Shown piece after piece: positions 8,491-60,497 of a DNA stretch of 64,000 bases (within the stretch, counting starts at the first letter, position 1; each line of letters opens with the position of its first letter). Source of the stretch: a virus; the IMG/VR virus record IMGVR_UViG_3300018411_000639, positions 48,617-112,616 of that record. One strand, written 5' to 3'. Both the position numbers and the translations under genes were made by a program. The notes under the pieces are model-generated. The model did not search any database. It worked only from the letters and a program-made list of their open reading frames with translations, and was not told the DNA's origin.

Positions 8491-9096
8491 CTATAATATC
8501 TGGATGGAGTAGTCTTTTGTGAATCCGCTATTCTCCATGACGATCTGTGCATAGGTTGACGGGATGCCCGCTTTTCCGATAGCCATCTTACGGAAGTCGT
8601 ACTTGCTTGGCCAAAGCGTACAGGTCTCACAAATGATTTCTTCTCTCTGCAGAGGGTCAAGGTTTGGGATAGCTGCGAGCTGTTTGTACTCGAAGCGGTT
8701 CAGAGTGCGGAAGACGAAGTACTGTCCCATGATTTCGATAGCCATAAGGTTGTAGTCTTCCCATTGGCGCTTCCACGTTTCGACTTGTGTGATGGTAGGT
8801 CCACCCACAAAGAGGGGTTCGTCATAAGCGTAGAGTTCAGGGTTGTCGCCGAGTTCTCCTTCTTCCGGCTCGCTTCTCAGCGTAGGTAGGTCTTCCCACT
8901 CTTCCGGTTCGTTCTGCAGATGAACACTTTCCTCGGTTTCTTCGCTTGTGTCGGAATTGACACCTTCAACTACTTCATTGTCATCTCGGAACGATGCGTA
9001 CAGGTCTTCGTTTGCTGCAGGTTCCTCACTGATTTGCTTGGATAGTTTTTCTTTGGCTTGCTTTGCTAATTGATCTAGGTTTCCTCCGCTGAACAT
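8491..9096 (-). CDS. Tail assembly chaperone-like protein A
   Basis: The 201-residue product has an acidic, low-complexity N-terminal half (residues 1-90, rich in Glu/Asp/Ser) and a C-terminal half homologous to the following gene (VFRTLNRFEY, then EEIICETC, then WPSKYDFRK). The paralogy and position upstream of the giant tape-measure-position gene suggest a tail assembly chaperone. The acidic N-terminal segment contains one copy of the 14-bp TGTC operator-like motif at 8949-8962, read as G-V-N-S-D-T. Function is inferred from location. Confidence 0.65.
   Translation of the reverse strand: MFSGGNLDQLAKQAKEKLSKQISEEPAANEDLYASFRDDNEVVEGVNSDTSEETEESVHLQNEPEEWEDLPTLRSEPEEGELGDNPELYAYDEPLFVGGPTITQVETWKRQWEDYNLMAIEIMGQYFVFRTLNRFEYKQLAAIPNLDPLQREEIICETCTLWPSKYDFRKMAIGKAGIPSTYAQIVMENSGFTKDYSIQIL
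8949..8962 (-). promoter_or_regulatory. Dispersed operator-like motif (intragenic, exact copy)
   Basis: TGTCGGAATTGACA on the plus strand, extended to GTGTC/GACAC arms (8948-8963). It lies inside the chaperone A gene. No convincing promoter is seen beside it. Confidence 0.6.
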
Positions 9097-9115
9097 TTAC
9101 ATTCCTCACTCTCTC

Positions 9116-9631
9116 TTAGTCCGTGCTTTCCTCAATATCCTGTGCAATGAAATCGTAGGTCTTGAAAAGGGGGTTCCCTGACGCATCCACTTCCACACCT
9201 GAACTACGCAAGAACACGCGCTTTAAGGTTGTGTTCAAGGGATGGTTCGCTCCAAAGTCCACTCGGATCTCCAGATCGTTCCCTCTCAATGCTTCCGTGT
9301 TACCTTCTTTGAAGAAGGGTGTATGTTTGGGTGTCCCATCGTACTTAGGAACGCCGCCCGCTTCCTCTTCTTGTTCATATCCGGCCATAGCGTTCGTAAC
9401 CAGAGCACCGTACTCTTCTTCCAGTTTAGCCTTTGTGTTGGCGTCCAGTCTCCCTGTTGCGGTCAGACCTTTCTTGGTCTGGTAAGCTTTAACGGCTTCC
9501 TCGTAAGCAAGGGTGTACTCTTTCCCGATCGCATACCCGTTCAAAGCCCCGACAGCGTTCAACATAATGCCCACTTCCTGAACCTCATCTGAGATATAAG
9601 GACTTCCGGGGACATACTTTAGTTCTGACAT
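9116..9631 (-). CDS. Tail-region protein with N-terminal peptidoglycan-binding domain
   Basis: This 171-residue protein begins with a PG_binding_1-type three-helix module (residues about 14-72; YEEAVKAYQTKKGLTATG followed by a D-x-T-x-KL helix is typical). The remaining 100 residues contain a beta-rich segment (DLEIRVDFGANHP) that is not recognised. It is the third gene in a row in this cluster with a peptidoglycan-binding module, after the two tube-like proteins upstream, and may be the small end piece of that set. It has its own likely promoter at 9656-9684. A virion role in cell-wall contact is inference. Confidence 0.75.
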   Translation of the reverse strand: MSELKYVPGSPYISDEVQEVGIMLNAVGALNGYAIGKEYTLAYEEAVKAYQTKKGLTATGRLDANTKAKLEEEYGALVTNAMAGYEQEEEAGGVPKYDGTPKHTPFFKEGNTEALRGNDLEIRVDFGANHPLNTTLKRVFLRSSGVEVDASGNPLFKTYDFIAQDIEESTD

Positions 9632-9655
9632 AATAGCACCTCTTTTATCTTCTCC

Positions 9656-9684
9656 ATTTTACCATTTAACTTTGACCTTCACAA
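9656..9684 (-). promoter_or_regulatory. Sigma-A-like promoter with extended -10
   Basis: On the minus strand: TTGTGA (9679-9684), 17-bp spacer, TAAAAT (9656-9661) preceded by TGG, an extended -10. It sits in the only sizeable gap of this cluster and would transcribe the peptidoglycan-binding protein at 9116-9631, the chaperone-like genes and the giant gene. No TGTC operator motif overlaps it. Confidence 0.5.
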
Positions 9685-9685
9685 T

Positions 9686-10549
9686 CTAGGCTTTGGGGAT
9701 ATATACGCCAGGTTCACCTGTTTTGGAGATGTACCCTTTTGTTCCGTTGCTGAGCTGGACATAGTACCAATCCGATACAGTGCGCAGAATCCTTACGTTA
9801 GTGGATTGCTCCAGTGTTGTGATGGTTGGGTAAGTCATACCCGGACCTGTCCGTATCGCCGTATCAGGAGCCACAAATAAGTTTGCGAACGACCCTGTGT
9901 TCAATCCTTGGATGACCGCAAGTGTTTCGGTATCGAGCACGCCGGATTGATTCAAGTTGTAGTCACTCTGGATTTGACGGACGACACCCTTTGTCTTCGT
10001 GTCGTAGAACCCGTTGATCTCGACAGCATAACCCAACTTCAGGAGTTGCGTCTGTGTTTTCCGTAATTCGTCGCTGAACTCTTTGTCCTCCAAAGACTGC
10101 AGGGAATTCAGTCTGCTTTCCTCTGCAGAGCTTGGACGGGATGAAGCTTTCCACGTAGAGCCGGACAAAGGCTGCAGGTGAGATAAGGCGCTCTCCACCC
10201 ATCCGGGGTAATTGTTCTTCTTCGCTTCCTCTGCAACTTCTTCATTCACTGAATCAACAATGGCTTCGATTTCTCTTGTGCTGTTCTCTTCGGGATTGTG
10301 GATCGGCACGCGCAACATCCCCACGACAATCCGATTCCCGATAGCGACATCATCAAAGGTACGAGAAGCGTAGCCAAAGATCGGTTTCAGTTGCTCCTGT
10401 ATCTGATAACTCAAGCCAGAGATATGCGTCAGCTTTTCCCCGTTGACGTAAATAGCGACGTCGGCGCCTGAAAAGTATTCCTCGGTAAAGATGTTATGCT
10501 CCCGCGTATCGCCAGAGTTGTACTTTAAGGTAAGGCGGTCATCTGCCAT
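9686..10549 (-). CDS. Tail-tube-like protein fused to peptidoglycan-binding and SH3 domains (paralog 3)
   Basis: Residues about 20-100 of this 287-residue protein match the N-terminal part of the tail tube (YFSGADVAIYVNG, then GLSYQIQEQLKPIFGYAS, parallel to FSGADLVVSFA and ISYAIQREKAPVFTLGS in the tube). They are followed by a PG_binding_1 module (157-216) and a C-terminal SH3-type module (225-287; IRTGPGMTYPTITTL, WYYVQL, GYISK). The start ATG lies directly at the end of the preceding gene, so translation is coupled. A tube-fold protein bearing wall-binding modules probably forms a specialised layer of the tail, perhaps near the tip; this is inference. A conventional baseplate hub would normally have an enzymatic domain, and none is seen. 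Confidence 0.75.
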   Translation of the reverse strand: MADDRLTLKYNSGDTREHNIFTEEYFSGADVAIYVNGEKLTHISGLSYQIQEQLKPIFGYASRTFDDVAIGNRIVVGMLRVPIHNPEENSTREIEAIVDSVNEEVAEEAKKNNYPGWVESALSHLQPLSGSTWKASSRPSSAEESRLNSLQSLEDKEFSDELRKTQTQLLKLGYAVEINGFYDTKTKGVVRQIQSDYNLNQSGVLDTETLAVIQGLNTGSFANLFVAPDTAIRTGPGMTYPTITTLEQSTNVRILRTVSDWYYVQLSNGTKGYISKTGEPGVYIPKA

Positions 10550-12207: not shown

Positions 12208-12235
12208 AGCATAACACTCCTTTCGTATCATATAG

Positions 12236-12260: not shown

Positions 12261-12271
12261 CTGTTCTATGT

Positions 12272-15525: not shown

Positions 15526-16293
15526 CTATAAATCATAAGTAATGTCTGAAGCTTTATAAATATCGGGTTCAGCCCCTATATCTACCGTAGGTTCGGCATT
15601 GACCTCTAAGTCAATGCGCTTGATGGTACTGAGTCGCACGGCACTAATCCGTTCCAGACGGATGTAGTACATCAGACTTCGCATCGGGATACCATCTAAG
15701 AAGTGCATGGATTGACGAGGATTTACTTCCTTGAGGAAGAAGATCTCGCTGATGCCCTGTCTTTTCAGATATCCTGCGTAAGCTCCGATTAGTCCTTCGA
15801 ACCGAGCCATCAGCTTGCGGGTCTCTAGGTTGGTCCTGCCCCAAAAGTTGAACTCCACAATGCAATCGAACCACTGTCGGTATAGATTGAATGCGTCACC
15901 CGTCTTCTGTCCGGCCACCACTTCGAAAACCGTATCTGTTAGCGTGGGCTTGATGGATGTTTTTTCAGCAACCTCTCTGCTGTTCACATCGAAGGTAATC
16001 TGAGGAAGAACCAGTTTGTCCGGATCTTCCCCTCTCGGATAGTCCAGTGAGAGGACCCCCCACCCGTCACCCCATGCTGCGTTGAGAACTCTACGCAACA
16101 AAATCCCAAGCTGTTCGATATCGTCGATGTTTTCATCGGCTGCCATGCGAGCCTTCTCGCTCTCAACCGAACTTTCATCCGACTGAATGTAAGAGATGGC
16201 TTCCGGAGCCTTCTTTCGTGTCGGAATTGACACATCTGACGAAGGCTTTCCGAAATAGCTATCGTAAGCTACCTGATCTATCCCACTGGACAT
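15526..16293 (-). CDS. Putative tail terminator / neck protein
   Basis: A 255-residue protein between the two sheath genes. The N-terminal 60 residues are hydrophilic; the remainder (ITFDVNSREVAEKTSIKPT, then IVEFNFWGRTNLETRKLMARFE, then YYIRLERI) has the alternating beta/helix character of tail-completion proteins, but I recognise no named family with certainty. Genes in this position usually seal the tail tube top or join tail to head. One exact TGTC operator-like motif lies in its first 80 bases (16219-16232). The functional call is inferred from place and fold impression. Confidence 0.55.
   Translation of the reverse strand: MSSGIDQVAYDSYFGKPSSDVSIPTRKKAPEAISYIQSDESSVESEKARMAADENIDDIEQLGILLRRVLNAAWGDGWGVLSLDYPRGEDPDKLVLPQITFDVNSREVAEKTSIKPTLTDTVFEVVAGQKTGDAFNLYRQWFDCIVEFNFWGRTNLETRKLMARFEGLIGAYAGYLKRQGISEIFFLKEVNPRQSMHFLDGIPMRSLMYYIRLERISAVRLSTIKRIDLEVNAEPTVDIGAEPDIYKASDITYDL
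16219..16232 (-). promoter_or_regulatory. Dispersed operator-like motif (intragenic, exact copy)
   Basis: TGTCGGAATTGACA on the plus strand with GTGTC/GACAC arms (16218-16233), about 60 bp inside the start of the neck-type gene; it encodes V-S-I-P-T there. No clear promoter is seen beside it. Confidence 0.6.
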
Positions 16294-19277: not shown

Positions 19278-19306
19278 ATTATACTATAGGGTGTCGGAAT
19301 TGACAA
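19278..19306 (-). promoter_or_regulatory. Sigma-A-like promoter with operator over -35 and spacer
   Basis: Minus strand: TTGTCA (19301-19306), 17-bp spacer, TATAAT (19278-19283), then GAGGTG and the ATG at 19260. The exact operator-like motif (19292-19305) covers the -35 box and upstream spacer, so a bound protein should block RNA polymerase. The motif also lies in a 9-bp inverted repeat, ATAGGGTGT/ACACCCTAT (about 19286-19315). Confidence 0.75.
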
Positions 19307-35535: not shown

Positions 35536-36627
35536 CTATTCGAGAATGATTTTAAATCGGTAACTGTCTGCGAAGGCCGGTCCGAACTGCGTGATGTCTC
35601 TGTCTATCTTAATCAGGAAATCGTAGCTGACATTAGGGAGCAAGTCAGGTAGTTCCAGTTTCGTCTGGTACGTCGGCGTGTCGCTCGCAAAGGCCAGCGT
35701 AACTTGATCGCCTCCGCGATAATAAGACACAGGCGCCACAGACAAAGCGATACCTCTAAGTGGTTCCGCTTCTCTGCTGATGATGGTTACAGGAAGAACT
35801 GTTTCCTTGCCGGTAACCCTGCCGAGATCAAAGATATTGGCGTTAAGTACCGCTTGCTCTGCTATCAGGACTTCGACGTTGTACGCGTAATCGTACACAT
35901 CCCCTCCGCACAACGTAACGTCTTCAAGTCCACCAATCTCAATTCCGTCTGCACCCACAACCGACAATCTTGCGCTCGTCAGAGGGAGTAGTACTGTAGT
36001 CAGATCAACCAGTGCTTTCCCGTTGGAGTTCTTTACGGCGTCCTGATTCGCAAGGACATTTACGCCATTTTGGTCATAGATGCGAACGGTCGCATCGCTC
36101 GGAACGTTATTGACCGACAGTAGGTTAGATTTGTAGAAAGATACACCCAAGACTCGCAGCATATCTGAAACATAGGTCTGGACTCCATCAATGAAGAATC
36201 CGACTTCGTTCGCATCGTTCATTTCGGAATTACCTGCGTTCACCCAAGTCAGTCCGTCGCGCGAGATACAGAAAGTATGTACGCCCTTTTCTACGCACAG
36301 TTTGATGTAACGAAAGAGACTAAGCTCTTTCGCTCCTGTAAAGTAGTGTTGGCATTCAATCTGGTTCCCTGTATTCGACAAAACCACAAGACCCGAAACG
36401 TCAGATAACGTCTCGGGGTTGTGGTAGATCTGGGCTTGCATGACATAATCGTGAGAAGGTGTCGGAATTGACATGGTGAGACGTTCTTCTCCATGCTCCA
36501 ACCCAACATACCCCGCCTCAAAGACCACCCGACTGTAATCGTTGGGCGACAGGTTCCATAGCAAATTGCTGCTCGCAAAGTCATCTTCGAACAGGTATCC
36601 ACTGGAAACTTTCGTCAAAGTAGCCAT
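35536..36627 (-). CDS. Virion protein with N-terminal lectin-like domain
   Basis: Residues about 10-175 of this 363-residue protein look like a concanavalin-A-type jelly roll (FEDDFASSNLLWNLSP, SGLVVLSNTGNQIECQH, IKLCVEKGVHTFCISRDG, NEVGFFIDGV). The remaining part contains Ig-like strands (PSDATVRIYDQNGVNVLAN; TYQTKLELPDLLPNVSYDF). It probably binds sugars. One exact operator-like motif is present near the start (36460-36473). The start ATG is 10 bp after the preceding gene's stop. Confidence 0.6.
   Translation of the reverse strand: MATLTKVSSGYLFEDDFASSNLLWNLSPNDYSRVVFEAGYVGLEHGEERLTMSIPTPSHDYVMQAQIYHNPETLSDVSGLVVLSNTGNQIECQHYFTGAKELSLFRYIKLCVEKGVHTFCISRDGLTWVNAGNSEMNDANEVGFFIDGVQTYVSDMLRVLGVSFYKSNLLSVNNVPSDATVRIYDQNGVNVLANQDAVKNSNGKALVDLTTVLLPLTSARLSVVGADGIEIGGLEDVTLCGGDVYDYAYNVEVLIAEQAVLNANIFDLGRVTGKETVLPVTIISREAEPLRGIALSVAPVSYYRGGDQVTLAFASDTPTYQTKLELPDLLPNVSYDFLIKIDRDITQFGPAFADSYRFKIILE
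36460..36473 (-). promoter_or_regulatory. Dispersed operator-like motif (intragenic, exact copy)
   Basis: TGTCGGAATTGACA on the plus strand, read as M-S-I-P-T in the lectin-like protein. No convincing promoter is beside it. Confidence 0.6.
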
Positions 36628-37090: not shown

Positions 37091-40000
37091 CTAGGTTTGT
37101 CTGATGGTCTTTCTTTTGCCTTTCGACTTCTTGTTGTGGTGCAAGTCGAAGTAATCCTCGAGGCGCTGAATAAGATCCGTGATCGCCAGATTTCCGTGAA
37201 CCGCATCTTCAAAGAACGATTCATTGTTCTGGTAAAGGTCTTCGTAGATAGCAAGTTTCTTTATCAGTTCGTCTAGGACTCGGTTTCCACTCCCCACCAC
37301 GGGGTGATACTCTGTAATGATGTCCGCCTTAACCATGTCGGAAATGACAACGTTGGCTATGTTTATTATACCACTGCCTTCGCCATGGTAAAGCAATTTC
37401 AATTCGTTTTTCAGTCCATCTCCGGGCTTCAGCAAATCAAAGCTCAGATCCAGAGGAGAACCTTGGAATGCACCCTGTTGTTCTCCGTTCAAGAAGACCT
37501 CAAAAGCCCCTCCTGTCTGATAGGCTTTCATCTTGATAGACGTATTGGCCGGGTTCTCGATGAAGAAGGTAACGGAGCTTTCTTCGGTTACTACCGTATT
37601 CGTTAGGGTGTATTTAGATGTGTCGATGTGCATATTGGTTTTCTCGCAAGGGATAGCACTCTCTCCAGTATGGAAGCCCCCTTGAAGAGGTTCGTAGATA
37701 TAGCTGACACGGTACCGCGAGTTCTTCAGGATAGAAGCCTCTCCGTACCACCTAATCAAGCGTAAGACACGATAGGCTTGTTGCTGTAGGCCTGGCGGAA
37801 TCTCTAGCTGAATGTAGGCGTCCATGAACTCGAGCATCTTAGCGACCGAGTCCCGCATATCCATTGCTCCGAACTTGAAGATGTTCTCCTGCCACGTTTT
37901 GTTGTAAATCAAAATCATGTGACGGAGCAGGCTGACGTTTACATCCAGATACTCTCTGGCGATACCCTTGTACTCCGGCAAAGGGTGTGAGATCGGTCGC
38001 TCAACCAAGAAGGAGCCATCGGCCAATGTGTTGACAAGTTTCAGCGGCTTCAACGTATCCGGATCAATCAGACCTTCTTTATAAGAGGAATAGTCGTAAT
38101 CCAACTGAGGAAGCAGTAGTTCATCGACACCTCCCGCTGTCAAGTTGAGCAAGTCATCATGATCGCTTGCGTTGTACACCCATTCGGTCTTGGGCGTGTA
38201 GCGGAGATCTTTCAGCACTTTAGCTAGGCCGACGTACTTCTCAAGTTCTGGATGCGTCTCAATAGATCTCTTGTCGACCAAGTACCTGCTCGAATTCCGG
38301 TCATAATTGGTGGCGCGGTCTTTCTGCTCAAGTAAGAGGCTACCACCTTCGTCAAGGATACGATAAAGTTTGACCAAAGGAACGTCGCTTTGATGTCTGA
38401 AGATATTCTTCTCAATCTTGAGCGACAGAGAGGCTTGGGTCAGCGTTGTGCTTTTCTCGGCCTTGACCTCCAAGCCGACATCTTCTGGCTTGGGAACTTC
38501 AACGGTCCCCGACACGACCTTAGCTGCTCTCGTGCCATCCTGAAAAACATCCGTACTCTTTTGAGGTGACCCCAAGCGAAGCCCATCCTCTTTGTCTCGA
38601 GCATCGTTGACGACACCATCAAAGCGGGTATCGAGGTCAGCTTCCGTTGTTTCTTTGGAATAACGTCCGAGGCTGATGTCGCTCTCATGGATGCCTGTCG
38701 TCTTGAAAATCGCATCCACTGATGTATCTTTTGTTTCGAATACGGACCGGCCTCTCTGATCTACTTCGATATACAGTCCTTCACAGTTTAGCCCGTTTAC
38801 GGTCGCATCAATCGCAACCATCTCTTTGGCCAGAGCAATAACGTACTCTCTTTTGTCCAGGAAAGAACCGTTGAGTGAGACAGGGTTCATCTTTCGACCT
38901 CTCGCCTGAAGAGTAATTATTCCTTCTTGAATCCCGACAGCCAGTAGCTTCGACAAGTTCTTCTGCTGACTCTCTGTCCAAGCCGCGCCCATCCCTCGAC
39001 CAAAAGAGATATCCTGGAACGGAACATCTATGTCGACTTCCAGTTTTTGGTAGCGAAGACTGAACAGCTCGGAGATGCCCGCTGACAAAGAACTTTTCCC
39101 AGCCGAGACATTTTCCTCCAAGCCGAAGGTCGGCAAGTCTTTCGACAGGAACTGGCCTTCTTCTCCGTACATGAATTGATGTTCAGACCGGGAGGCGGAT
39201 TGCACAGCATCTCTGGAAACACCATAAGACTCCTTCCAGAGAGATGTCATCGCGTCAGATGGATCGTTCTGGAATGTTTTCCTGTCTCGGGATGCACTCT
39301 GGAATGGCCGGCCTTCGTAGAGATCCATGAGGCGACCGAACCAATTCTCCTCTGGTGACAACAGGTCTGCTTGATAGGCGTCTTTCGATAGAATCTGCAC
39401 GCCTTCGATTGACTGCACGCCGTAGGCTTCCTTTTCCAGTATCCAGTCGATAGCACTTACAAGAGCCTGCTTTTCAGGAGAGGACAACCCAACGAAGTTC
39501 AGGTCGTAGAAGTCTTTCGGATCTTTTGTAATCTTCGAGATAAAACTGGCAGCATTGGCAGCATAGACTTCTTTGACGTTACTGTCGCTTGCTATCTGGT
39601 TTTCTTGTACGAGAGCTGACTTGCTTTCTCCTGACGTGAATCGGACAGTTTCCGAACCCAAGTCTTTGTACTCCTTGGACGCACTGTCTTTGTCCGTCAT
39701 GTCTGTGACGTTCTCGCTCATCTCTTTTTTGTTCGCATCCATTTGACAGTCGGAGGAAGATTCAACGCCTTTTGTTCCTGACCCCGCAGAGATTTCATCC
39801 CACTCGAGGAAGAGAGAGAGAAAGAACTTCTCCAGGGCTAGACTTTCCCGAACCAGAGCTGATAATTCCCGAGTGTCCCAAAAAGTAGCCTCAGAGCTTG
39901 ACGCTTCTTTTGGTCTCCCGGGTTCTAGGCTTTGAGGGCCGGAGGAAAAAGCTTCGGGTACGTCTTTTTCGAGGATATGAGTTTCTTCGACACGAGACCC

Positions 40001-52551: not shown

Positions 52552-52577
52552 TGGTTCACCTTGCCTTTGTCATGTTT

Positions 52578-52593: not shown

Positions 52594-52600
52594 AGCCATC

Positions 52601-52816: not shown

Positions 52817-52833
52817 AAGATCTCTCCTTTTCA

Positions 52834-53997
52834 CTAGACGTTCAGGTAGTCGCTATGGACAAACCCGCCGTTATCTCCAAAGTAGATATTCCACCAAGTG
52901 CCAATCTTCTTACCAAGACGAACTTTCTCGCCCTTCTTGAGTTGACCGACGATCTTAGCTGATGTATTGCCTCTGGCACGAACATTCAAGACGTCCGCGT
53001 TCACCGTGCCCCACACCTCTTTCTCTGCCGCTTTCACGGGAGAAACCGATGCAGTTCCCACTTTCAGGTATGAACCGTGAACGAATCCACCGCTATCCCC
53101 GAAGTAGATGTTCCACCAGTCACCATGTTTGCTACCAAGCTGAATTTTCTGTTCGCCTTGTAACTGACCGATGACAGCGTAGCTTGTGGAAGGACCTTGA
53201 CGGACGTTAAGATTCTCGCCTTTCGGCAGATTCACGACCGCATAGCCGCTTCCTACAGTTGCTGCCGAAACTACTTTGACTTCTTCTTTCAGCTTCAAGA
53301 TCTGTCCTGCTTTGATGAGGTTTCCGGTCAAGCCGTTGATCAACCGTAGAGAACCTACAGAGACCTTCGTTTTGGTTGCTATCCCGAAAAGCGTGTCACC
53401 TTGCTGAACCGTGTATGTGCTGCCAGATGGTGTCGGAGTTGACACATTAGAAGCTCCCGTACTGCCGGATTGAAGTTCTTTGATACGAGCTTTCAATCGC
53501 TTCTTGAAGGCGGCCCACTTTGCTTCGTCAATGTACATGATCGGACAAATCTTGCCCGTCACGTCGAAGTGACGAATGAGTGCAACGTCTGGCGCTCCCA
53601 TTTCAATAGCTTTCTTGGCTGCGAAATCAATCGTATTCTCGACAGTCTGCTCCCAGTCATTGTCTGTGTTAACGCACATCTCGAATCCGACTGTAAAATC
53701 ATTCGGACGCGTTGCGCCGCTAAGTGCGAAGGTGGACTTGGCATAAGCTGTGTACTTCGTACCGCCTGCGTGCCAAGATACCCAGCCTGCTTCAATGCAC
53801 TCCACTACTTCAGAGTCGTCAATGTTGTAATTGGCGGAAGCTCCGATTGCGGGGTGGTTCTGGAAGTAGTTCCGGTTTGCGCGGGCATTTGCGCCTTTGC
53901 TGTAGTTCGCGGTGTAGTGGAAGACGAACGCTTTCAGTGACTTGATTTTGCGCTTTGGATTGTTGTTGGTGATAGGCATTTTGATAATTGCATACAT
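52834..53997 (-). CDS. Endolysin: N-acetylmuramoyl-L-alanine amidase with LysM and two SH3 domains
   Basis: Amidase_2 domain: H27 in FHYT, H76 in SWHAGG, H143 with K149 and C151 in RHFDVTGKIC, the zinc and catalytic residues. It is followed by a LysM domain (YTVQQGDTLFGIATKT; residues about 195-240) and two SH3-type modules (about 252-318 and 330-387; WWNIYFGDSGGFVHGSYL and WWNIYFGDNGGFVHSDYL). It cleaves the peptide link of cell-wall peptidoglycan. The gene has its own promoter with an operator at 54022-54079. A single-mismatch operator motif also lies inside it, in the linker. Confidence 0.9.
   Translation of the reverse strand: MYAIIKMPITNNNPKRKIKSLKAFVFHYTANYSKGANARANRNYFQNHPAIGASANYNIDDSEVVECIEAGWVSWHAGGTKYTAYAKSTFALSGATRPNDFTVGFEMCVNTDNDWEQTVENTIDFAAKKAIEMGAPDVALIRHFDVTGKICPIMYIDEAKWAAFKKRLKARIKELQSGSTGASNVSTPTPSGSTYTVQQGDTLFGIATKTKVSVGSLRLINGLTGNLIKAGQILKLKEEVKVVSAATVGSGYAVVNLPKGENLNVRQGPSTSYAVIGQLQGEQKIQLGSKHGDWWNIYFGDSGGFVHGSYLKVGTASVSPVKAAEKEVWGTVNADVLNVRARGNTSAKIVGQLKKGEKVRLGKKIGTWWNIYFGDNGGFVHSDYLNV
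53431..53444 (-). promoter_or_regulatory. Dispersed operator-like motif (intragenic, one mismatch)
   Basis: TGTCGGAGTTGACA on the plus strand; read as V-S-T-P-T in the linker between amidase and LysM domains. Confidence 0.5.
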
Positions 53998-54021
53998 GTA
54001 CCTGGACCCCTTTCCTCGGCC

Positions 54022-54081
54022 AAAGGTGTCGGAAATGACACCTTTCAGCCATTATAGCATACTGCTTTTTGCAGTGCAAAA
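54022..54081 (-). promoter_or_regulatory. Promoter-operator of the lysis/head operon
   Basis: Minus strand: TTGCAC (54074-54079), 17-bp spacer, TATAAT (54051-54056) preceded by TGC, an extended -10. The operator-like motif (54027-54040) lies about 10 bp downstream of the -10 box, within a perfect 9-bp inverted repeat AAAGGTGTC/GACACCTTT (54022-54045). A second 15-bp palindrome, TTTTGCA-G-TGCAAAA (54067-54081), covers the -35 box. It should drive the amidase, holin, portal and capsid genes. Confidence 0.78.
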
Positions 54082-54083
54082 CA

Positions 54084-54153
54084 GCCTCCGTTGAGCGAAT
54101 GATCGCCCTTCCGCTCTGACCCCTCTAAGAGAGAGCATAAGCGAATAGGAGGC
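54084..54153 (-). other. Structured gene-free stretch upstream of the lysis promoter
   Basis: In the 200-bp gap between the gene at 54200 and the lysis promoter, GCCTCC (54084-54089) can pair with GGAGGC (54148-54153), enclosing GCGA/TCGC and GCTCT/AGAGC smaller stems. On the minus strand the outer stem is followed by TGTTTT, so it may be a complex terminator for the packaging operon. Confidence 0.45.
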
Positions 54154-54199
54154 GTCCAACTCCCTACAACTTCAATATACGCAAAGTTCATTCGGATTG

Positions 54200-55222
54200 T
54201 TACACAAGCGATCCATAAATCTTCCTGTAATAATCCTTCTCCTCTAACGTCTTCAGGTAACTGTCACGGTATATCGTCTGGGAAATGGATGCTTTCGTAA
54301 GTTCCACCATCTCAGTCAGCAGCCCTTCTCTTGCGACAGAAACGGCCTTGCTTAGGATACCGGAGCGTTGCAGAGAGGCGTGATCGAGCGTGTCCTTCGC
54401 AAGCAACATGCGGTTTACTTCGTTTCGTTTTTCGACCAGCTGATAGATGGACCGAGGTAAAACTTGCTGCTTCGTCTGGCGGGCGACACCCTCTTGGTCG
54501 GACAAGTTCTTTTCGTTCACATCCCGGAAGAGCGTAACGATTGTATCATCCACGGCCAGAGTCTTTGTTACGGGCGAGTAAAACGAGGCGTCCGTTACAA
54601 GAGAAGCTAGCTCCTTCGTGTAACTGGAGAGAACTTGACTGTATCCGGTTATCGTCTTACCTAGAACCGCATCCACGCTCAACGCAAGATAGTTAACCTT
54701 GGGGCTGTCTTCTTCTTTCTCGAACTCCAGGAGGCGACTCTCGTATGCCTGATCCTTTGCTACCGCCTGCTCCTTGGTGATGTTCTCGTCACCATAAAAG
54801 AGCGTTGACTGGATTCGTTTCAACTCCCGCAATTCCTTTACGGCTCCAAAAATCGCTTGATGGGCTTCAACTGCCGTCTTGCCTTCGATGTTGTCCCTGT
54901 GCGCTTCCACGTAAGGGATGGCTGATGCGAGATCACCTTGCGAAAGAGCTGTTTTGTAGGATTCAAAGGACATCCCTTCAATCGAATCGTCTGCTAAAGT
55001 TTTGGCCAGAAAGGAGAGGATCGTTTCAGCGTCATCGAGCGTGCTCATCAGAGCCATCAATGTACTGGACGGTTTGTTCTGTAAAAAGGATGCCAGAGCG
55101 CTTGTTGCTTTGGATGCAACTTCTTCCGGAGAAGATGCCGTGTCCGTTCTCACGCTCTTTTGCTGTTCCAGTGACGGCCTGTAGGCGATCACCTCAGCAT
55201 CTTGAAATAATTGTCTGTCCAC
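54200..55222 (-). CDS. Helix-rich protein next to terminase, unknown function
   Basis: A 340-residue, mainly alpha-helical protein (ASKATSALASFLQNKPSSTL, LMALMSTLDDAETILSFLAK, KAVSVAREGLLTEMVELTKA). No family is recognised. It is the last gene of the packaging operon, 11 bp after the terminase stop. A role in capsid filling, virion completion or as an internal protein is possible. Confidence 0.55.
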   Translation of the reverse strand: MDRQLFQDAEVIAYRPSLEQQKSVRTDTASSPEEVASKATSALASFLQNKPSSTLMALMSTLDDAETILSFLAKTLADDSIEGMSFESYKTALSQGDLASAIPYVEAHRDNIEGKTAVEAHQAIFGAVKELRELKRIQSTLFYGDENITKEQAVAKDQAYESRLLEFEKEEDSPKVNYLALSVDAVLGKTITGYSQVLSSYTKELASLVTDASFYSPVTKTLAVDDTIVTLFRDVNEKNLSDQEGVARQTKQQVLPRSIYQLVEKRNEVNRMLLAKDTLDHASLQRSGILSKAVSVAREGLLTEMVELTKASISQTIYRDSYLKTLEEKDYYRKIYGSLV

Positions 55223-55233
55223 AGTACCTCTCC

Positions 55234-57129
55234 TTAGAAGCTTGCACGGGCAAACCCGCGAGCCTGTCTTTGTTCTCTTGCGACATGATTCTTACCTCTT
55301 CCCGCGATCGTTCCAACATAAGCGTCTTGCCCACCTGCTTTAAACATCTGGGCCGGTTTTTGCTTGGTTTCGATTGACCTTGTTCGGATGTTATCTTGCT
55401 GTGCCAGTCCATCGAAGAACATGACTTTTGTCGCAATCACCTGACGCAAGAGTTCGCCGTACTTCTGTTCGAAGATCAACAGGCATAGGTTCATGGCGTC
55501 AATGGCGTGTTCGTTGTCGGATGAGAATGTCGGCAGCCCGTTTGTCGAGATGGACTGGATGCGGTAGCCTTCTAACTGCTCCGTCATCGTGCGGTCATTC
55601 GGATTCAGGATGATCTTGTTCTTCTCGAACAGGTTGACGGAATTGTTTACCATGAACGGCTTCATGGCTTTCTTGTCTTTCTTCATCGTGTAAGGGTCAC
55701 GAACCTCGATCTTTTCAGAGAACTGATAGCCGACAACCTTCTCGGCCAGACCTGTGTTCGGGTTCTCGATCCCGTGCTTATGAAGCAATTCCAGTTGTGT
55801 CTCTCCGTACCCTCGGTCAACCGCAATCCAGTCAAAGTCGAACTGTTGGTTCAGCTCAATGATCTTGTTGATGGCATTGACGTAAGTGAACTCGGAACGG
55901 GGAATCTCAACCCTAAAGAGCACCTTGAACGTAGGCATTAGGCGGCCTTCTTTATCTCGATGATACTTGTCCAACTGAACACAGACCATATTGGTAGCGG
56001 CCGAGTACTTGTCCCAGTCCACGCCCAGAATTCTTGGACCTGTACGAGGAAGGCGAATGAATTCGTCAATCTCATTAGGTGTTAAGTCAAGGATGTATTT
56101 GTGATCAATACGACGACCCTCTTCGATAGCAGCCTCGATGTATTTCTTCTGATAAACGCCCATCTCTTCTTCACCGAACTCTGCCATAACCTCTTGCAGG
56201 TATCTCATTTCCGATAACTCGTCCTTGATGTCCTGTAGGTAAGTCTGCTCTGTATCCGGGTTCTGTTTCAGCAACTCTCTGTTTACGACAGAAGGCGCGC
56301 AGATCTCTATCCAACCATTTCCACGCTTGTTCTCTTGTATCTGGTAGCCATTGAACTCGAAGTTGTCGATGTCCTTTTTCAGAGGAGCATACTTAACCGA
56401 GGCATTCGTACACCAACGATAATACTCTTCGTGTTTCCCTGAAGGCGTGGATGCGGCGATAACTTTGATTCGCTCCGGTGCCTCGTTTCGGATATTGATG
56501 ATGTTGGTCAGGTTTGCGGATCCGATATAGTCGGCTTCGTCAAAGATAATGACATCGGCACGAAGTCCACGGGTATTAGCTGCACCTGAACCGGAACCTG
56601 CTCCTGCTGTGATACCTGTAATCTTGGCACCATTGGAAAGCTGAATGCGGTGATACACGTTACGGGACACCATGTCTTGCAACAAAGGTGAGCCGGCAAT
56701 CAGTTGTTTGAGGCGGTCGAAAATCAGATCCACCTGTGTTTCGTATGGCCCGATAACCAGAACGTCGTACTGCTCATTGGGTCCTTTGTTGATTTGAGTG
56801 TAAGCATACCAGAGCATCAGCACGCACATCGTATCTGTCTTCCCAAGACGCCGACCCAAACGAAGAACAATCTTCTTCCCCTTTTTCGCATTGGCCATGA
56901 TCGACAGCTGATAATCCCGCGCTTCCCAATCCAGATAGACTTTCGCCCATAGCGTCGGATTGTTGACGACAATGAACTCCAGAGCCTCTGCTCGAGAAAC
57001 ACCTGTCTGCGTAACGACATGGCACAGGCGAGGGATGATACTCTTGTCGAGATGCTGAATCTCCTTGATTACTACATCAATCTGCTTGTCATCCAGTTGA
57101 CTAATACTATAGGCAGCTTTTACGGCCAT
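55234..57129 (-). CDS. Terminase large subunit
   Basis: A 631-residue DNA-packaging ATPase/nuclease. Walker A is GRRLGKT (92-98), Walker B is IIFDEA (D197, E198), and the coupling motif is AASTPSGK. The C-terminal RNase H-fold nuclease has D371 in GVDWD, D438 in AVDRG and D544 in HAIDAM, all the expected acids. It pumps and cuts DNA at the portal. The start overlaps the preceding gene by one base. Confidence 0.93.
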   Translation of the reverse strand: MAVKAAYSISQLDDKQIDVVIKEIQHLDKSIIPRLCHVVTQTGVSRAEALEFIVVNNPTLWAKVYLDWEARDYQLSIMANAKKGKKIVLRLGRRLGKTDTMCVLMLWYAYTQINKGPNEQYDVLVIGPYETQVDLIFDRLKQLIAGSPLLQDMVSRNVYHRIQLSNGAKITGITAGAGSGSGAANTRGLRADVIIFDEADYIGSANLTNIINIRNEAPERIKVIAASTPSGKHEEYYRWCTNASVKYAPLKKDIDNFEFNGYQIQENKRGNGWIEICAPSVVNRELLKQNPDTEQTYLQDIKDELSEMRYLQEVMAEFGEEEMGVYQKKYIEAAIEEGRRIDHKYILDLTPNEIDEFIRLPRTGPRILGVDWDKYSAATNMVCVQLDKYHRDKEGRLMPTFKVLFRVEIPRSEFTYVNAINKIIELNQQFDFDWIAVDRGYGETQLELLHKHGIENPNTGLAEKVVGYQFSEKIEVRDPYTMKKDKKAMKPFMVNNSVNLFEKNKIILNPNDRTMTEQLEGYRIQSISTNGLPTFSSDNEHAIDAMNLCLLIFEQKYGELLRQVIATKVMFFDGLAQQDNIRTRSIETKQKPAQMFKAGGQDAYVGTIAGRGKNHVAREQRQARGFARASF

Positions 57130-57527
57130 TAACCTAGCCCCCTATAGTAGGAACGCGCTTCGCTCCCCAACACAGAGCGAGCATTCATCCCATTCTGTTG
57201 GATTGCCTGAAGTCCTCGTTGCCTCATCGTTGCAGCGTTACTGGAGTCACGGAAGTTTCCACCGAAATTAGCCTTGTAATGTCTGGACTGTGTGGCGGCT
57301 GTTTCTCTTCCTGCTGCATTTACGGCACCAAAAGCGGCACCGGCAATATCTTTCGCCATAAAAGCGAATCCTACCGGGCCGGGGAGAAGCTCAAATAGAG
57401 CATACTCTCCGACTGCTTTTCCGATAGAATAGGCGGCCCCGTGTCCTTGGCTCTTGGAGTCCTTGTAGGATGCGACTCCGCCGAGTATATTCCCTCCTTC
57501 AAAGAGGGCTGTTTTTACAAAACCCAT
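57129..57527 (-). CDS. Small Gly/Ala-rich virion-region protein
   Basis: A 132-residue protein with a Gly/Ala-rich middle hydrophobic stretch (ELLPGPVGFAFMAKDIAGAA) and a basic C-terminus ending MRQRGLQAIQQNG, MNARSVLGSEARSYYRGLG. No family is recognised by me. It is the third of three such proteins in a row before the terminase; their membrane-active look suggests internal/ejection proteins, which is inference. Stop and terminase start overlap. Confidence 0.55.
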   Translation of the reverse strand: MGFVKTALFEGGNILGGVASYKDSKSQGHGAAYSIGKAVGEYALFELLPGPVGFAFMAKDIAGAAFGAVNAAGRETAATQSRHYKANFGGNFRDSSNAATMRQRGLQAIQQNGMNARSVLGSEARSYYRGLG

Positions 57528-57541
57528 CGGGCGTCACCTCG

Positions 57542-57949
57542 TTATCTTAGATTATGCAGAGCAAAGACCAAGTCTCCCTCTGCTCCGTATGTGTTTCGTG
57601 TTACTTTTTTGAACATCCGATCCTGTTCCTCTTGAAAGGCTTTCGGGTCCGTCTCGGCTAGTTGCATCGTTTTGTCCAACAGAGGGGAACGCGTGAAGCT
57701 GACCATGTTCGCAAGTTCGTCCGACTGAATCGTTCCAAGCTTGTTCCTGTTCTGGGTACGGAGCGCTTCAGGGATCACCGTCGCGGCAGTAGATACACCA
57801 ATCGCCGTAGCTGCGACGGGAGTCGAGAAGCGGTACGGAATGACCTTCTGAAAGACGCTCTCGGCTCCGTCCATCGCCTCGTCATCGAGTTTAGTGAACG
57901 CCTTTCCGAGAACCTTTTTAGCAAACCTGCCTGTACTTTTAACACTCAT
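57542..57949 (-). CDS. Small protein with one hydrophobic segment
   Basis: A 135-residue protein with a basic N-terminus (RFAKKVLGKAFTKL), a hydrophobic Ala/Val/Thr-rich segment (TPVAATAIGVSTAATVI) and a hydrophilic C-terminus. It resembles neighbours in composition and is likely part of the same virion set. Function unknown. Confidence 0.5.
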   Translation of the reverse strand: MSVKSTGRFAKKVLGKAFTKLDDEAMDGAESVFQKVIPYRFSTPVAATAIGVSTAATVIPEALRTQNRNKLGTIQSDELANMVSFTRSPLLDKTMQLAETDPKAFQEEQDRMFKKVTRNTYGAEGDLVFALHNLR

Positions 57950-57960
57950 TCCTTAGCCTC

Positions 57961-58548
57961 CTAAAAGAACGGAAGTCCTGCGATATCCCGCTCACCTTGA
58001 TTGTTGTAACCTACCGATCCGCCAGTAAGAGATCGACCGATAAAGTTAGCCCCCATATAAGCTCCGGCGGTAGCTCCTGCGCGGATGGCGTTCGTCTTTT
58101 TGCTGCCACTGCGGTAGTACCCTGCCGTAGCACTACCGAACGTCGCAAGGTTTCCCCCAAGTGTGTCGTCTTTACCCTTTATGTCGCGCAAAGCCCCGAA
58201 GTTTTCTCCGACTCCTTTGCCTTTCATGTTCTCGACAGCTGCCTTTTGCCTAGTCCAATCGCCGTCGTACATTTCTTTGTTGTCCTGATACCAGTTGCTG
58301 ACAGATTGAGCTTTGTCGATGTCTTTCTTGGCTTTGCCTTCGAACTGCTTAGCGAAGCCCTCATCGTCCATCAGATTCTTGAATTGTCTACTGACATCGC
58401 TTTTGCTTGCCTTTCCTTCGGCGATGGAGCTGGCTGTTTTTATGAAGCTGTCCGTCTGGTTGAATATTTTCTGACCTCCGCGCTGAATCGCCTCATTGCT
58501 ACCTAAGACCGTGCGGCCTAAGCCTTTCATACTTTTCATAAAGCTCAT
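57961..58548 (-). CDS. Gly-rich protein with C-terminal zipper-like region
   Basis: A 195-residue protein with a helical N-terminus, a basic middle, and a C-terminal Gly/Ala-rich region (NAIRAGATAGAYMGANFIGR, then GGSVGYNNQGERDIAGLPFF). The small-residue pattern looks like a membrane-interacting glycine zipper. Unknown function; by context a virion protein. Confidence 0.5.
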   Translation of the reverse strand: MSFMKSMKGLGRTVLGSNEAIQRGGQKIFNQTDSFIKTASSIAEGKASKSDVSRQFKNLMDDEGFAKQFEGKAKKDIDKAQSVSNWYQDNKEMYDGDWTRQKAAVENMKGKGVGENFGALRDIKGKDDTLGGNLATFGSATAGYYRSGSKKTNAIRAGATAGAYMGANFIGRSLTGGSVGYNNQGERDIAGLPFF

Positions 58549-58550
58549 TT

Positions 58551-59324
58551 TTATTCTTCCCCTTTCGTTGGTCCTAAGTTTTCGTCCGGTTCCATCTCGA
58601 TAATCTCTCCATCAAAGGTGAGTTCGTCGATGTCCGGCATAAGCTCGGCCACTTTCTTGAATATACTTACGGCTCTCTCGGACGGATTCATTGCTCCGCC
58701 TGACCCACTTCTGTCTTTGCGGGTCGAGTTCAACAGGTTGAAGATCTTGTACCTCTTTTCCTGCAGGTGATTCTTATACTCTGCTTCAGGGGATACCGTG
58801 TCCTCGTAATACACCTTGCCGCGGTTGTCTATCTCTGCGATTGTCTTAGAGATGAATCCGGCATTGATGGCTACAAGGTTCTCTGCACGAAGCATCATGA
58901 TTTCGTTCTCGACCAGATCCCGTATCAAAGAAGCATCAACCAAGTCTTCGTCCAGGATCGCTTCTCCGGTTATGTCAATCTCAAAGTGACGGCACCAAGA
59001 TTCGTAGCGCGCAATAACGGCACCGGCCTCCATCGGACAACGCTGACCGACAATGCGGAACGCTGGGTTGATGATACACACCTCTGCGAAAGGACAGTCC
59101 GGACCTTTACAGATGATCGGAACCCCTGCGAACATACCGTGCTTGATCTTGTAAACCTGCGAAGCCTCTTGCGCTACTTGAATCATGGCCGGATGCATCC
59201 CCCACATCCGTTCCATGATATTGCCCGAGTTGACTGTCGGAGCGTTCCCTGTCGTCAGGTGAGAAGATGGACCTGCAGGCGACAGCTCACTTACTTCATT
59301 TCCGTCTATTTCTTCATTCATATT
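58551..59324 (-). CDS. Candidate terminase small subunit with a cysteine cluster
   Basis: The ORF is open from a GTG at 59333, but the ATG at 59324 is better placed after GGTGG and overlaps the preceding stop (257 residues). It lies shortly after the palindromic gene-free region and upstream of the large terminase, the usual place for a small terminase subunit. It has four cysteines (CKGPDCPFAEVC, then RCPMEAG), which suggests a metal site, and a helical middle and C-terminus. DNA-binding fold is not obvious, so it could instead be another packaging or virion protein. Confidence 0.45.
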   Translation of the reverse strand, partial: NMNEEIDGNEVSELSPAGPSSHLTTGNAPTVNSGNIMERMWGMHPAMIQVAQEASQVYKIKHGMFAGVPIICKGPDCPFAEVCIINPAFRIVGQRCPMEAGAVIARYESWCRHFEIDITGEAILDEDLVDASLIRDLVENEIMMLRAENLVAINAGFISKTIAEIDNRGKVYYEDTVSPEAEYKNHLQEKRYKIFNLLNSTRKDRSGSGGAMNPSERAVSIFKKVAELMPDIDELTFDGEIIEMEPDENLGPTKGEE

Positions 59325-59326
59325 TT

Positions 59327-59524
59327 TCACCACCCTTCGATGCTCTTGGCGCCTTTGTTCGTAAATTCTTTGGATGAATCGAAGCCGTAAGCGATCTTGC
59401 TCTTCATACGCTGATAGAGAGCGTCGTTCGTCTGTACGCCTTGATTGCCTGTCATGATAACCTTGCCGTAAATACTATGTTCGTTTGCTTCTGCGTTGGC
59501 TCGAAGCCCTGCCGGAGTTCGCAT
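59327..59524 (-). CDS. Small protein of unknown function
   Basis: A 65-residue gene with AGAAAGAGG before its ATG, overlapping the start of the next gene by 1-4 bases. The product is hydrophilic with no recognised domain. It is the first gene after the palindromic gene-free region. Confidence 0.5.
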   Translation of the reverse strand: MRTPAGLRANAEANEHSIYGKVIMTGNQGVQTNDALYQRMKSKIAYGFDSSKEFTNKGAKSIEGW

Positions 59525-59561
59525 CGAAACACCTCTTTCTGTTGTACTGTCTGTGCTGACT

Positions 59562-59635
59562 CCAATCCAAACCCATCGAATTCGAGGGGGTTAAACAGGC
59601 CCCACTCCAAACTGGTCGAATTCGACCAGTTTAAA
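59562..59635 (-). repeat. Two imperfect 34-bp direct repeats, 40 bp apart, with palindromic core
   Basis: Both copies read, on the minus strand, TTTAA, then C, TCGAATTCGA, GTTTGGA and TGG at fixed positions (26 of 34 matched). Copies lie at 59562-59595 and 59602-59635. In the right copy the core extends to a perfect 24-bp palindrome (59609-59632). The 40-bp offset puts them on the same face of DNA. Confidence 0.75.
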
Positions 59636-59656
59636 AACTTCCTGTTATTTTTGTCT

Positions 59657-59702
59657 ATACGAAAACCGGGCCACACAAGGGAGATGGGGTGTGGCCCGGT
59701 TT
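59657..59702 (-). terminator. Intrinsic terminator of the 60-kb regulatory transcript
   Basis: A perfect 14-bp stem: AAACCGGGCCACAC (59663-59676) and its complement (59689-59702), 12-base loop, followed on the minus strand by TTTT. It lies 134 bp after the HTH gene. Confidence 0.75.
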
Positions 59703-59835
59703 AGGTGAGAGGAATGTAGGTAGTCGTATTGCGGGTACGACTTCCGGGATAAGGAGGTAAAGAGTTGGAATTGAAAGGTGAATTTCCATTCGACCCTTCA
59801 CTTACGATATACGGTTCAACCTCTGCCTTTGTAAC

Positions 59836-60096
59836 TTACTTGCGCTTGCTCTCGCAGTCAGGACAGGTGGTCTTCCTGCGTTCTTTACGGCGGATCGTAA
59901 TAGACTTCAAGCACGTATTGCACTCATAGACTTTGTCTTTCTTATTTTGCAGATTAGCTCGAGGGATGTCGTGCTCCAAACGGGTACGATTAACCGTTGC
60001 GCGCGAGCAGCCGATGATGTCTGCGATTTCGTTGTCGTTCAGTCCTTCTTCAGAACTCAACCGTTCAATCTCTTTTACTATAAAGCTGATAGCCAT
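59836..60096 (-). CDS. HTH plus zinc-ribbon DNA-binding protein
   Basis: An 86-residue protein with a helix-turn-helix (residues about 18-46; DNEIADIIGCSRATVNRTRL) followed by a zinc-ribbon pattern (C59-x2-C62, C78-x2-C81). Both parts are DNA-binding folds. An operator-like motif lies 37 bp upstream of its ATG and the transcript ends at a terminator. It is the best local candidate for the regulator that reads the TGTC motif, and could autoregulate; it could also be a packaging-site recognition protein. Confidence 0.7.
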   Translation of the reverse strand: MAISFIVKEIERLSSEEGLNDNEIADIIGCSRATVNRTRLEHDIPRANLQNKKDKVYECNTCLKSITIRRKERRKTTCPDCESKRK

Positions 60097-60133
60097 TTGC
60101 GGGGGACTCTCCTTCTGTGCGTGGATGTGATGG

Positions 60134-60147
60134 TGTCGGAATTGATA
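60134..60147 (-). promoter_or_regulatory. Dispersed operator-like motif (one mismatch)
   Basis: TGTCGGAATTGATA on the plus strand, directly downstream of the basic coiled-coil gene and 37 bp before the HTH gene. No good promoter was seen at this site. Confidence 0.55.
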
Positions 60148-60417
60148 CTATTGAGCCTTCTCTGGTTTGCGAGCTGACGACATGCGATACATGTTCTTCG
60201 TTAGCTTAGTGAGGCCCTTGTCGAATGCCTTGCGTAGACGGGACTTCTCTGCGGGAGCGGTAGCTTGCTCTTCCAACTCCTGAAGACGCTTGAGTTTTGT
60301 AGTCAATCGCATCGCCTCTCGCTGTAGTTCTTCTGCCGCTTCCCTCTTCTTAGTGGGTGTCTGCTTAGCCTTGTTTGTTTCCCATGATTTTAGTTGACGC
60401 TTGCTCTTTGTGTTCAT
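60148..60417 (-). CDS. Lys/Arg-rich coiled-coil protein
   Basis: An 89-residue, strongly basic helix-rich protein (KTKSKRQLKSWETNKAK-type start, then LQREAMRLTTKLKRLQELEE). AAAGGACGG precedes its ATG. It leads the 60.4-kb transcript under a promoter with an operator. It could bind nucleic acid or act as a co-regulator; no domain is recognised. Confidence 0.6.
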   Translation of the reverse strand: MNTKSKRQLKSWETNKAKQTPTKKREAAEELQREAMRLTTKLKRLQELEEQATAPAEKSRLRKAFDKGLTKLTKNMYRMSSARKPEKAQ

Positions 60418-60438
60418 AATAGGCCGTCCTTTCTATGG

Positions 60439-60497
60439 TGTCAATTCCGACACGTTATCTTTCTGTCATTATACCCTTTCTGCTTCATCTGTGTCAA
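60439..60497 (-). promoter_or_regulatory. Sigma-A-like promoter followed by exact operator motif
   Basis: Minus strand: TTGACA (60492-60497), 18-bp spacer, TATAAT (60468-60473); the motif (60439-60452) begins 15 bp after the -10 box, near the transcription start. This copy has the opposite orientation to the other eight. It drives the basic coiled-coil and HTH genes. Confidence 0.78.

Follow-up and report, generated by a model that had tools for sequence, protein, structure and literature searches.

The window analysed here is a 64,000-bp stretch of the 112,616-bp virus record IMGVR_UViG_3300018411_000639, from a phage in the 0305phi8-36/MTATph1 giant-myophage lineage. Judging from relatives of 200-244 kb, the record probably represents about half of a genome. 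Along the window, copies of a 14-bp motif, TGTCGGAATTGACA, lie within virion and lysis genes, at promoter-like sequences and on either side of a small gene for an 89-aa basic protein, which is followed by a gene for an 86-aa helix-turn-helix (HTH) protein (Table 1). Genes were taken from a set of 89 obtained by our own ORF picking, and terminator-like sites were scanned in window positions 52400-63000.

Table 1. Motif copies, promoter-like sequences and associated genes, in window coordinates.
Feature	Position	Strand	Context
Motif copy, exact	8949..8962	+	inside gene 8491-9096(-), frame VNSDT
Motif copy, exact	16219..16232	+	inside virion protein gene 15526-16293(-), frame SIPT
Motif copy, exact	19292..19305	+	intergenic; overlaps -35 and spacer of promoter-like sequence
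Promoter-like TTGTCA-17-TATAAT	19278..19306	-	overlapped by motif copy at 19292
Motif copy, exact	36460..36473	+	inside gene 35536-36627(-), frame SIPT
Motif copy, 1 mismatch	37336..37349	+	close to 3' end of gene 37091-40843(-)
Promoter-like TTTACC-16-TATAAT	37365-37392	-	motif copy 37336 sits 15 bp downstream
Motif copy, 1 mismatch	53431..53444	+	endolysin gene 52834-53997(-), amidase/LysM interdomain
Motif copy, 1 mismatch	54027..54040	+	intergenic; stem reaches 9 bp
Promoter-like TTTGCA-18-TATAAT	54051-54080	-	precedes endolysin and holin-like gene; motif copy 54027 10 bp downstream
Motif copy, 1 mismatch	60134..60147	+	between 89-aa and 86-aa HTH genes; abuts 89-aa stop codon
Sole reversed motif copy, exact	60439..60452	-	leader of 89-aa/HTH genes, 21 bp upstream of 89-aa ATG
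Promoter-like TTGACA-18-TATAAT, 12/12 consensus positions	60468..60497	-	
Second promoter-like sequence	60416-60444		TTGACA supplied by motif copy 60439 itself
89-aa basic protein, predicted all-helical	60148..60417	-	motif copy on either side
86-aa HTH and zinc-ribbon-like protein	59836..60096	-	conserved in lineage; candidate binder of the earlier note

An earlier note on this DNA had reported nine copies in the window (five exact, four with one mismatch); its positions and mismatch counts hold for every one, as does the shared orientation of eight of them. The observation is confirmed and is larger than was reported there: the whole record holds 11 exact and eight one-mismatch copies, spread over its 112 kb, with 18 on one strand and one on the other, and the commonest 10-, 12- and 14-mers of the record are words of this motif. 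The pattern read backwards has no match in the record. The expectation that such a word would occur far less than once is borne out by 20 order-3 Markov simulations of the record, in which copies with at most one mismatch averaged 0.10 and never exceeded 1, compared with 19 observed. When up to three mismatches are allowed, the window contains 21 matches, whereas shuffled sequences average 7.06 and have 16 at most (0 of 100 shuffles reach 21), which excludes a frequency no higher than that of shuffled sequence. These shuffle and Markov counts rule out chance as the origin of the motif. TGTC-N6-GACA arms are present in 17 of the 19 copies; the dyad arms are symmetric and the core is polar, with a constant TCCGACA half and a variable TGTCAAT half.

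Fourteen of the 19 copies are intragenic and five are intergenic (eight and three, respectively, among exact copies), an intergenic excess (P 0.002) given that 95% of the sequence is coding. Eighteen are oriented with transcription of the minus-strand genes, and four of these lie at promoter-like sequences, of which there are 15 sense matches on the strand (background 0.9%, P 1.7e-5, in a test run after the earlier note had already pointed to promoters). The remaining, reversed copy directly follows a perfect sigma-A consensus promoter. Of these five promoter copies, four are located 10-17 bp past the -10 box, and the fifth, at 19292, covers the -35 and spacer, the -35 being part of the motif. 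The earlier note's count of four copies on or just after promoters was reproduced (19292, 37336, 54027 and 60439). Similarly, all five copies in the related record G014 share one orientation, and two copies in G007 inside plus-strand genes are on the opposite strand and hence also sense; as the G007 copies switch strand with the gene, orientation appears to be tied to transcription and not to the genome.

The proposal that selection acts on DNA stands, because the copies are read in two coding frames (the readings VNSD, VISD and SIPT were reproduced), occur between genes as well, and have only one type of stem around the AATTCC loop. A protein repeat (VNSDT) is ruled out by the two frames and the five intergenic copies. 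In five of the 14 intragenic copies the motif takes the place of other residues in aligned relatives, with mostly ungapped alignments through the site (record positions 31934, 32130, 38014, 85076 and 85952); six further copies lie in gapped or poor alignments and three have no aligned relative. The mostly ungapped alignments also led to the rejection of a mobile 16-mer insertion.

The motif was sought along the full length of G000 and of 51 other records, several of them near-duplicates. At up to one mismatch, copies were found in G001 (the same phage, two copies), G014 (five), G007 (two), G044 (one) and G045 (three), the last of which we take to be 0305phi8-36 because of its lineage and its length of 218,948 bp. 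The other 46 records, closest relatives included, have no copy at this threshold; 11 of these exceed 100 kb and the rest are fragments. Of the 73 genes with a relative, 43 find their best match in G003/G004 or G020, all of them without a copy at this threshold. G014 (37% GC; terminase and portal 53-62% identical) shares the motif, with its five copies at other places, yet is the best match for none of the 73. In 0305phi8-36 a weaker variant is found in mixed orientation. Conservation between related phages, a matter raised by the earlier note, is therefore seen in G014 and weakly in 0305phi8-36, but not in most other relatives examined. Pairs of TGTC-N6-GACA arms number 12 in 0305phi8-36 (3 expected) and six in MTATph1 (about 1.2 expected), where the centres are unrelated. 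When words were counted de novo in MTATph1, KLEB27-3 and six records of the lineage (G009 as two incomplete pieces), nothing else with a similar copy number turned up in MTATph1, KLEB27-3, G007 or G003, whereas G011 showed two hairpin-like repeats. The tables of motifs and sigma homologs in relatives cover parts of G009 (173,152 of 213,152), G012 (200,000 of 210,290), G022 (40,000 of 41,361), G004 (21,815 of 122,948) and G048 (20,000 of 60,014).

A wider 15-mer search returned 45 viral stretches, every one of them with a single match and lacking a further copy when one mismatch is allowed. A degenerate 16-mer matched at least 114 stretches and, among the matches listed, two or more copies under a looser rule were seen in L292, a 6-kb twin of the present phage (also L057), in L354, which is G014, and in L296 and L312, for neither of which the lineage proteins used produced a match. 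A host regulon was provisionally rejected from a broad survey of genome contigs, in which the exact 16-mer is found in 69 stretches, once in each; if the looser rule is applied, two Bacteroidales stretches among them (L363 and L424) gain a further partial copy pointing the other way.

The 86-aa HTH protein that the earlier note put forward as the binder is present in 17 of 30 other records searched, and 15 of these 17 are without the motif at up to one mismatch (seven exceed 100 kb, the others being fragments, some near-duplicates). Its recognition helix in motif-less G004, G020 and G048 is almost identical to that of the present phage, and motif-bearing G014 has the most diverged copy among the records compared (39% identity). 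Because the protein is common in motif-less relatives, and from the comparison of recognition helices, it was judged an unlikely candidate and is probably not the binder. G007 has a reversed motif copy 588 bp upstream of its HTH gene, and G044 has a poor one with two mismatches; these may match the reversed copy here, which at two of 16 other loci (13 with the full 1.5 kb) is suggestive only. The 89-aa protein, possible but unsupported as a binder, is predicted to form three helices (pLDDT 81.8, single-sequence fold); Foldseek matched this fold to no structure at E 0.001 or below, and the only similarity to the protein in 15 other records was a weak, unconvincing one (E 0.007). The record also encodes an XerD-like tyrosine recombinase (PF00589, E 3.8e-35) that seems by eye to retain the catalytic R, K, HxxR, H and Y residues. 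The enzyme occurs in two of 22 records searched, being shared only with MTATph1, and 0305phi8-36 gave no integrase match. Its presence makes lysogeny of the present phage, and a lysogenic repressor, plausible, although it could instead serve dimer resolution.

By analogy, precedents for a regulatory reading are the L5 stoperators, the SPBRE elements of SPbeta and the T1-type repeats. Stoperators of L5 and Cluster A phages are 13-14 bp long and occur in about 20-30 genome-wide copies oriented with transcription, some at promoters (Pleft) and one intergenic upstream of the repressor gene (PMC9283540, PMC6550527). The 19 copies of a 14-bp site here, 18 of them transcription-oriented and some at promoters, are alike in these respects. 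However, L5 sites are asymmetric and mostly in short intergenic spaces, whereas 17 of the 19 sites here have symmetric arms and 14 are intragenic against five intergenic; the L5 repressor is a known monomer with two DNA-binding domains, whereas the binder here is only putative. The earlier note knew of no comparable case in a Bacillota phage, but SPBRE, a 15-bp element in ten promoter regions of SPbeta (Bacillus subtilis) bound by the master repressor MrpR, is one (PMC10516654), being a dispersed motif of about the same size in a large temperate phage. All ten ChAP-seq peaks of SPBRE are in promoter regions, and the relevant part of that report describes no elongation effect (PMC10516654). MrpR has a recombinase fold without catalytic residues; the one tyrosine recombinase found here seemingly keeps them, as judged by eye. 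Identity with SPBRE was rejected as its sequence differs; at up to three mismatches the present motif has 16 matches in SPbeta (18 in the control) and 18 in phi3T (11 in the control), and neither phage has a copy with fewer than two mismatches. T1-like phages (T1, TLS and Stevie) carry dispersed, transcription-oriented repeats likened to stoperators by their authors (PMC4319613, PMC11447400), but these lie wholly or mainly between genes, are asymmetric in Stevie and in T1, and belong to lytic phages. The repeated motif of Nostoc phages A-1 and N-1, suggested as possible stoperators (PMC4916379), differs in being asymmetric, located between ORFs and inconsistently oriented with genes. Within the present lineage, the 218-kb genome of 0305phi8-36 has a dispersed phage-specific motif, 21-bp candidate promoters at 14 sites in noncoding segments (PMC2147016).

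The explanation we favour, at roughly an even chance, is that the 14-bp sites are bound by a phage transcriptional repressor and comprise operators and stoperator-like intragenic sites. The candidate repressor would occupy the operators and keep transcription from starting at the 89-aa/HTH leader, at the lysis genes, at the primase/helicase operon and at two more operons. The intragenic copies, like the stoperators of L5, would halt or delay RNA polymerase during elongation in one direction, keeping the prophage silent. The constant TCCGACA half set against the variable TGTCAAT half suggests that the polar core would give the bound protein a direction in spite of the dyad arms. Against repression by such a protein stand the motif-less closest relatives (G003/G004 and G020), while G014 is the best match for no gene; the four two-mismatch copies (two sense and two antisense), in which the orientation bias is not kept, along with the mixed orientation in 0305phi8-36; and the fact that no repressor gene was found, none being recognised as an immunity repressor among the proteins scanned (part of the gene set, in an incomplete record that is probably half a genome).

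The same sites might act as operators only, the promoter copies being true operators and the intragenic ones auxiliary or decoy sites, which would adjust the level of unbound regulator or bridge DNA without an effect on elongation. Enrichment at promoters, near-palindromic arms that fit a dimeric repressor and the promoter location of SPBRE sites are consistent with this. However, exact intragenic copies outnumber exact intergenic ones, and a symmetric decoy requires no shared orientation, yet 18 of 19 copies share one; we consider this rather unlikely. Positive control of middle or late genes, by a phage activator, sigma-like factor or antiterminator, draws on a sigma-like protein encoded in the record (L009:4647-5504, PF04545) and on the published 21-bp promoter class of 0305phi8-36 (PMC2147016), but is improbable given that most copies are intragenic, that four of the five promoter copies lie past the -10 box of good sigma-A-like promoters and that homologs of the sigma-like protein occur in motif-less relatives.

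Action at the RNA level, with a GUGUC-AAUUCC-GACAC hairpin as a transcript processing or protein-binding element, would account for orientation with transcription and for the 4-5 bp stem of most copies, which reaches 9 bp at 54027 and by eye is longer at two G007 copies. It is nevertheless very improbable: all 11 four-pair hairpins with an AATTCC loop carry TGTC/GACA arms (five variant loops, with six such arms and five others, are uninformative), C follows the site in 15 of 19 copies whereas G precedes it in only 12, both arm changes in the record break pairing, and at 60439 an exact copy points against its own promoter. Least probable of all are dispersed partition, condensation or recombination sites that maintain the DNA of a plasmid-like prophage; the spread over 112 kb and the XerD-like recombinase agree with such sites, but promoter enrichment and transcription-linked orientation are not expected of them.

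On the repressor reading, it is possible, although we lean against it, that stoperator-type silencing evolved independently in a Bacillus/Moorella giant myophage, in which a putative repressor at near-palindromic polar sites within structural genes would stop RNA polymerase one way and hold a lysogen genome of about 200 kb silent. If true, silencing by many oriented roadblocks would not be peculiar to mycobacteriophages, where it has been shown, and a lineage with a lytic type phage would include a temperate branch that has an immunity code of its own. The intragenic sites would then illustrate how regulatory DNA can be overlaid on protein-coding sequence in phages, and the patchy distribution of the motif (in the present phage, G014 and weakly 0305phi8-36, with none in G003/G004 and G020) could be used to follow a lifestyle change.

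All nine copies of the 14-bp near-palindromic motif listed in the earlier note are present in the window, which spans bases 48,617-112,616 of a virus record of 112,616 bp (G000). The whole record carries 11 exact and 8 one-mismatch copies, 19 in all where an order-3 Markov model predicts 0.10; the pattern read backwards has no copy in the full record. ORFs were picked with a simple script, and because nearly all genes lie on the minus strand the motif is read on the coding strand as TGTCAATTCCGACA, with C after it in 15 of the 19 copies and G before it in 12. The strand split is 18 to 1. The TCCGACA half is constant in all 19 copies and every mismatch falls in the TGTCAAT half, a constancy that is descriptive, as the sites were picked by similarity. 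Allowing two mismatches adds four copies, two sense and two antisense. A second repeated word, TTCAACTACTTC, occurs six times in the record, on one strand.

Fourteen copies are intragenic, ten of them in a VNSDT-like frame and four in a SIPT-like one, with the third frame unused; the remaining 5 of 19 are intergenic. The use of two coding frames together with the intergenic copies bears out the proposal that selection acts on DNA rather than protein. At 5 of the 14 intragenic copies the aligned relatives have different residues, mostly in gap-free alignments; for the other nine, alignment to relatives is poor or absent. As for a role in RNA, four-pair hairpins with an AATTCC loop have TGTC/GACA arms in 11 of 11 cases, and hairpins with five variant loops have these arms in six cases and other arms in five. 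The motif is selected as DNA, not as protein and probably not as RNA.

Promoters were called by consensus matching. The minus strand has 15 sense promoter-like matches in all (at most two mismatches). Of the 18 sense motif copies, 4 overlap such a match or trail it by no more than 25 bp, where the background is 0.9% (P 1.7e-5), which upholds the reported association with promoters. Under a looser rule on either strand, 11 of 19 copies lie near a promoter-like match against 3.3 at random, a number reached in 0 of 300 draws, this excess being partly due to TTGACA within the motif itself. A separate scan of window 52400-63000 shows no overall excess of such matches, with 9 where shuffled sequence gives 10.6. 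Three motif copies cluster where the replication operon begins, at record 11833, 11722 and 11449. Another copy lies about 40 bp before the gene of a 329-aa protein with a serine hydrolase domain of the beta-lactamase family (PF13354, E 4.7e-39).

Motif copies at promoter-like sequences and protein genes discussed in the text (L009, a contig stretch)
Feature	Position	Context
Promoter-associated motif copy	record 11833	before 220-aa gene, then primase (9479-10294) and DnaB-like helicase (8200-9276)
Promoter-associated motif copy	record 67908	before 248-aa gene, which is ahead of the sheath genes
Promoter-associated motif copy	record 85952	before 144-aa gene
Promoter-associated motif copy	record 102643	before endolysin and holin-like gene
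Reversed motif copy	window 60439	in leader, after 12-of-12 promoter-like sequence
HTH plus four-cysteine protein, 86 aa	window 59836-60096 (-)	few genes from terminase
HEVGH protein, 188 aa	window 62492-63058 (+)	near regulatory region
Tyrosine recombinase	L009:2547-3578 (+)	
Beta-lactamase-family protein, 329 aa	L009:3629-4618 (-)	left of window

The copies form a real, DNA-selected, transcription-oriented and promoter-enriched set of sites. A phage repressor would bind them; the promoter copies would act as operators, and the intragenic copies may block elongation in a polar manner. Nearest among known systems are the stoperators of L5 and the SPBRE/MrpR system of SPbeta; similar repeats occur, unexplained, in T1-like phages, and a less oriented set in Nostoc phages. 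The naming of L5 stoperators as nearest analogue stands in part: L5 sites are asymmetric and mainly intergenic, whereas the G000 motif showed neither feature when examined for both, and for this reason the set is not filed with L5-type stoperators. No paper combining 'stoperator' with 'Bacillus phage' was found in the literature searched.

PHROG matches to the portal, major head protein, two tail sheaths and terminase, and tblastn matches to Moorella phage MTATph1, Bacillus phage KLEB27-3 and also Acinetobacter phage ME3 (haloarchaeal viruses match only weakly), place the source phage in a giant myophage lineage. With a portal profile, 42 loci were recovered from viral contigs, including that of the phage's own near-identical twin (L057) and several on contigs of 200-244 kb, and a search with a terminase profile led to a record of 218,948 bp (G045) taken as Bacillus phage 0305phi8-36; the G000 record therefore probably covers about half of a genome. 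It encodes a tyrosine recombinase whose nearest solved structure in sequence is XerD, and a PF00589 match was found in 2 of the 22 lineage records searched, G000 and MTATph1. Such a XerD-like enzyme fits lysogeny, under which a repressor would be expected, although Xer-like enzymes may have other roles.

The 86-aa HTH/zinc-ribbon-like protein put forward as the binder is disfavoured. Of the 30 other records searched for it, 17 have it, 15 of them motif-free at one mismatch, and the recognition helix of the protein is nearly identical in the motif-free records G004, G020 and G048 but not in the motif-bearing relative G014. Kept in much of the lineage, its gene is more likely a conserved terminase-proximal one that perhaps encodes a small-terminase-type protein, for which the PHROG matches are weak. 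An 89-aa basic helical protein, its gene flanked by a motif copy on both sides and with no convincing relative among 15 other records, is a candidate binder and no more. The nearby 188-aa protein has an HExxH-type stretch and weak metalloprotease matches.

Conservation of the sites among related phages, which the earlier note had made decisive, is partial. G014 (20,342 bp, 37% GC), a fragment too short to judge lysogeny from, has five one-mismatch copies in one common orientation, in different genes from those of G000 or different places of the same gene. G045 has six copies of TGTCAGAATTGACA (up to one mismatch) against 0.15 expected, in mixed orientation; by eye, the one at 16084 lies behind a TATAGT box and ahead of a gene. 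Two further records, G007 and G044, have a few copies. The motif at up to one mismatch is absent from 46 of 51 other records, 11 of the 46 exceeding 100 kb. Other repeated words were seen: CGTTCGCACGA-type words seven times in G045, perhaps identical with the 21-bp promoter class already published; two hairpin-like words in the 218,431-bp record G011 (L145-L155), each in one orientation, CGGCGTTAGCCG (by complement) eight times and AACAGCAAAGCTGT five times; and a tandem pair, TGTCGTTTCCGACA and TGTCATTTCCGACA, 27 bp apart at L312:5026-5066, on a 5,959-bp contig with no match to the lineage proteins used.

The records G003/G004 and G020, best match for 43 of the 73 genes with a relative, have no copy at up to one mismatch, and no gene of G000 has its best match in G014. 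The distribution of the motif does not track overall relatedness, which favours a trait that is gained, lost or swapped within the lineage and speaks against a core function.
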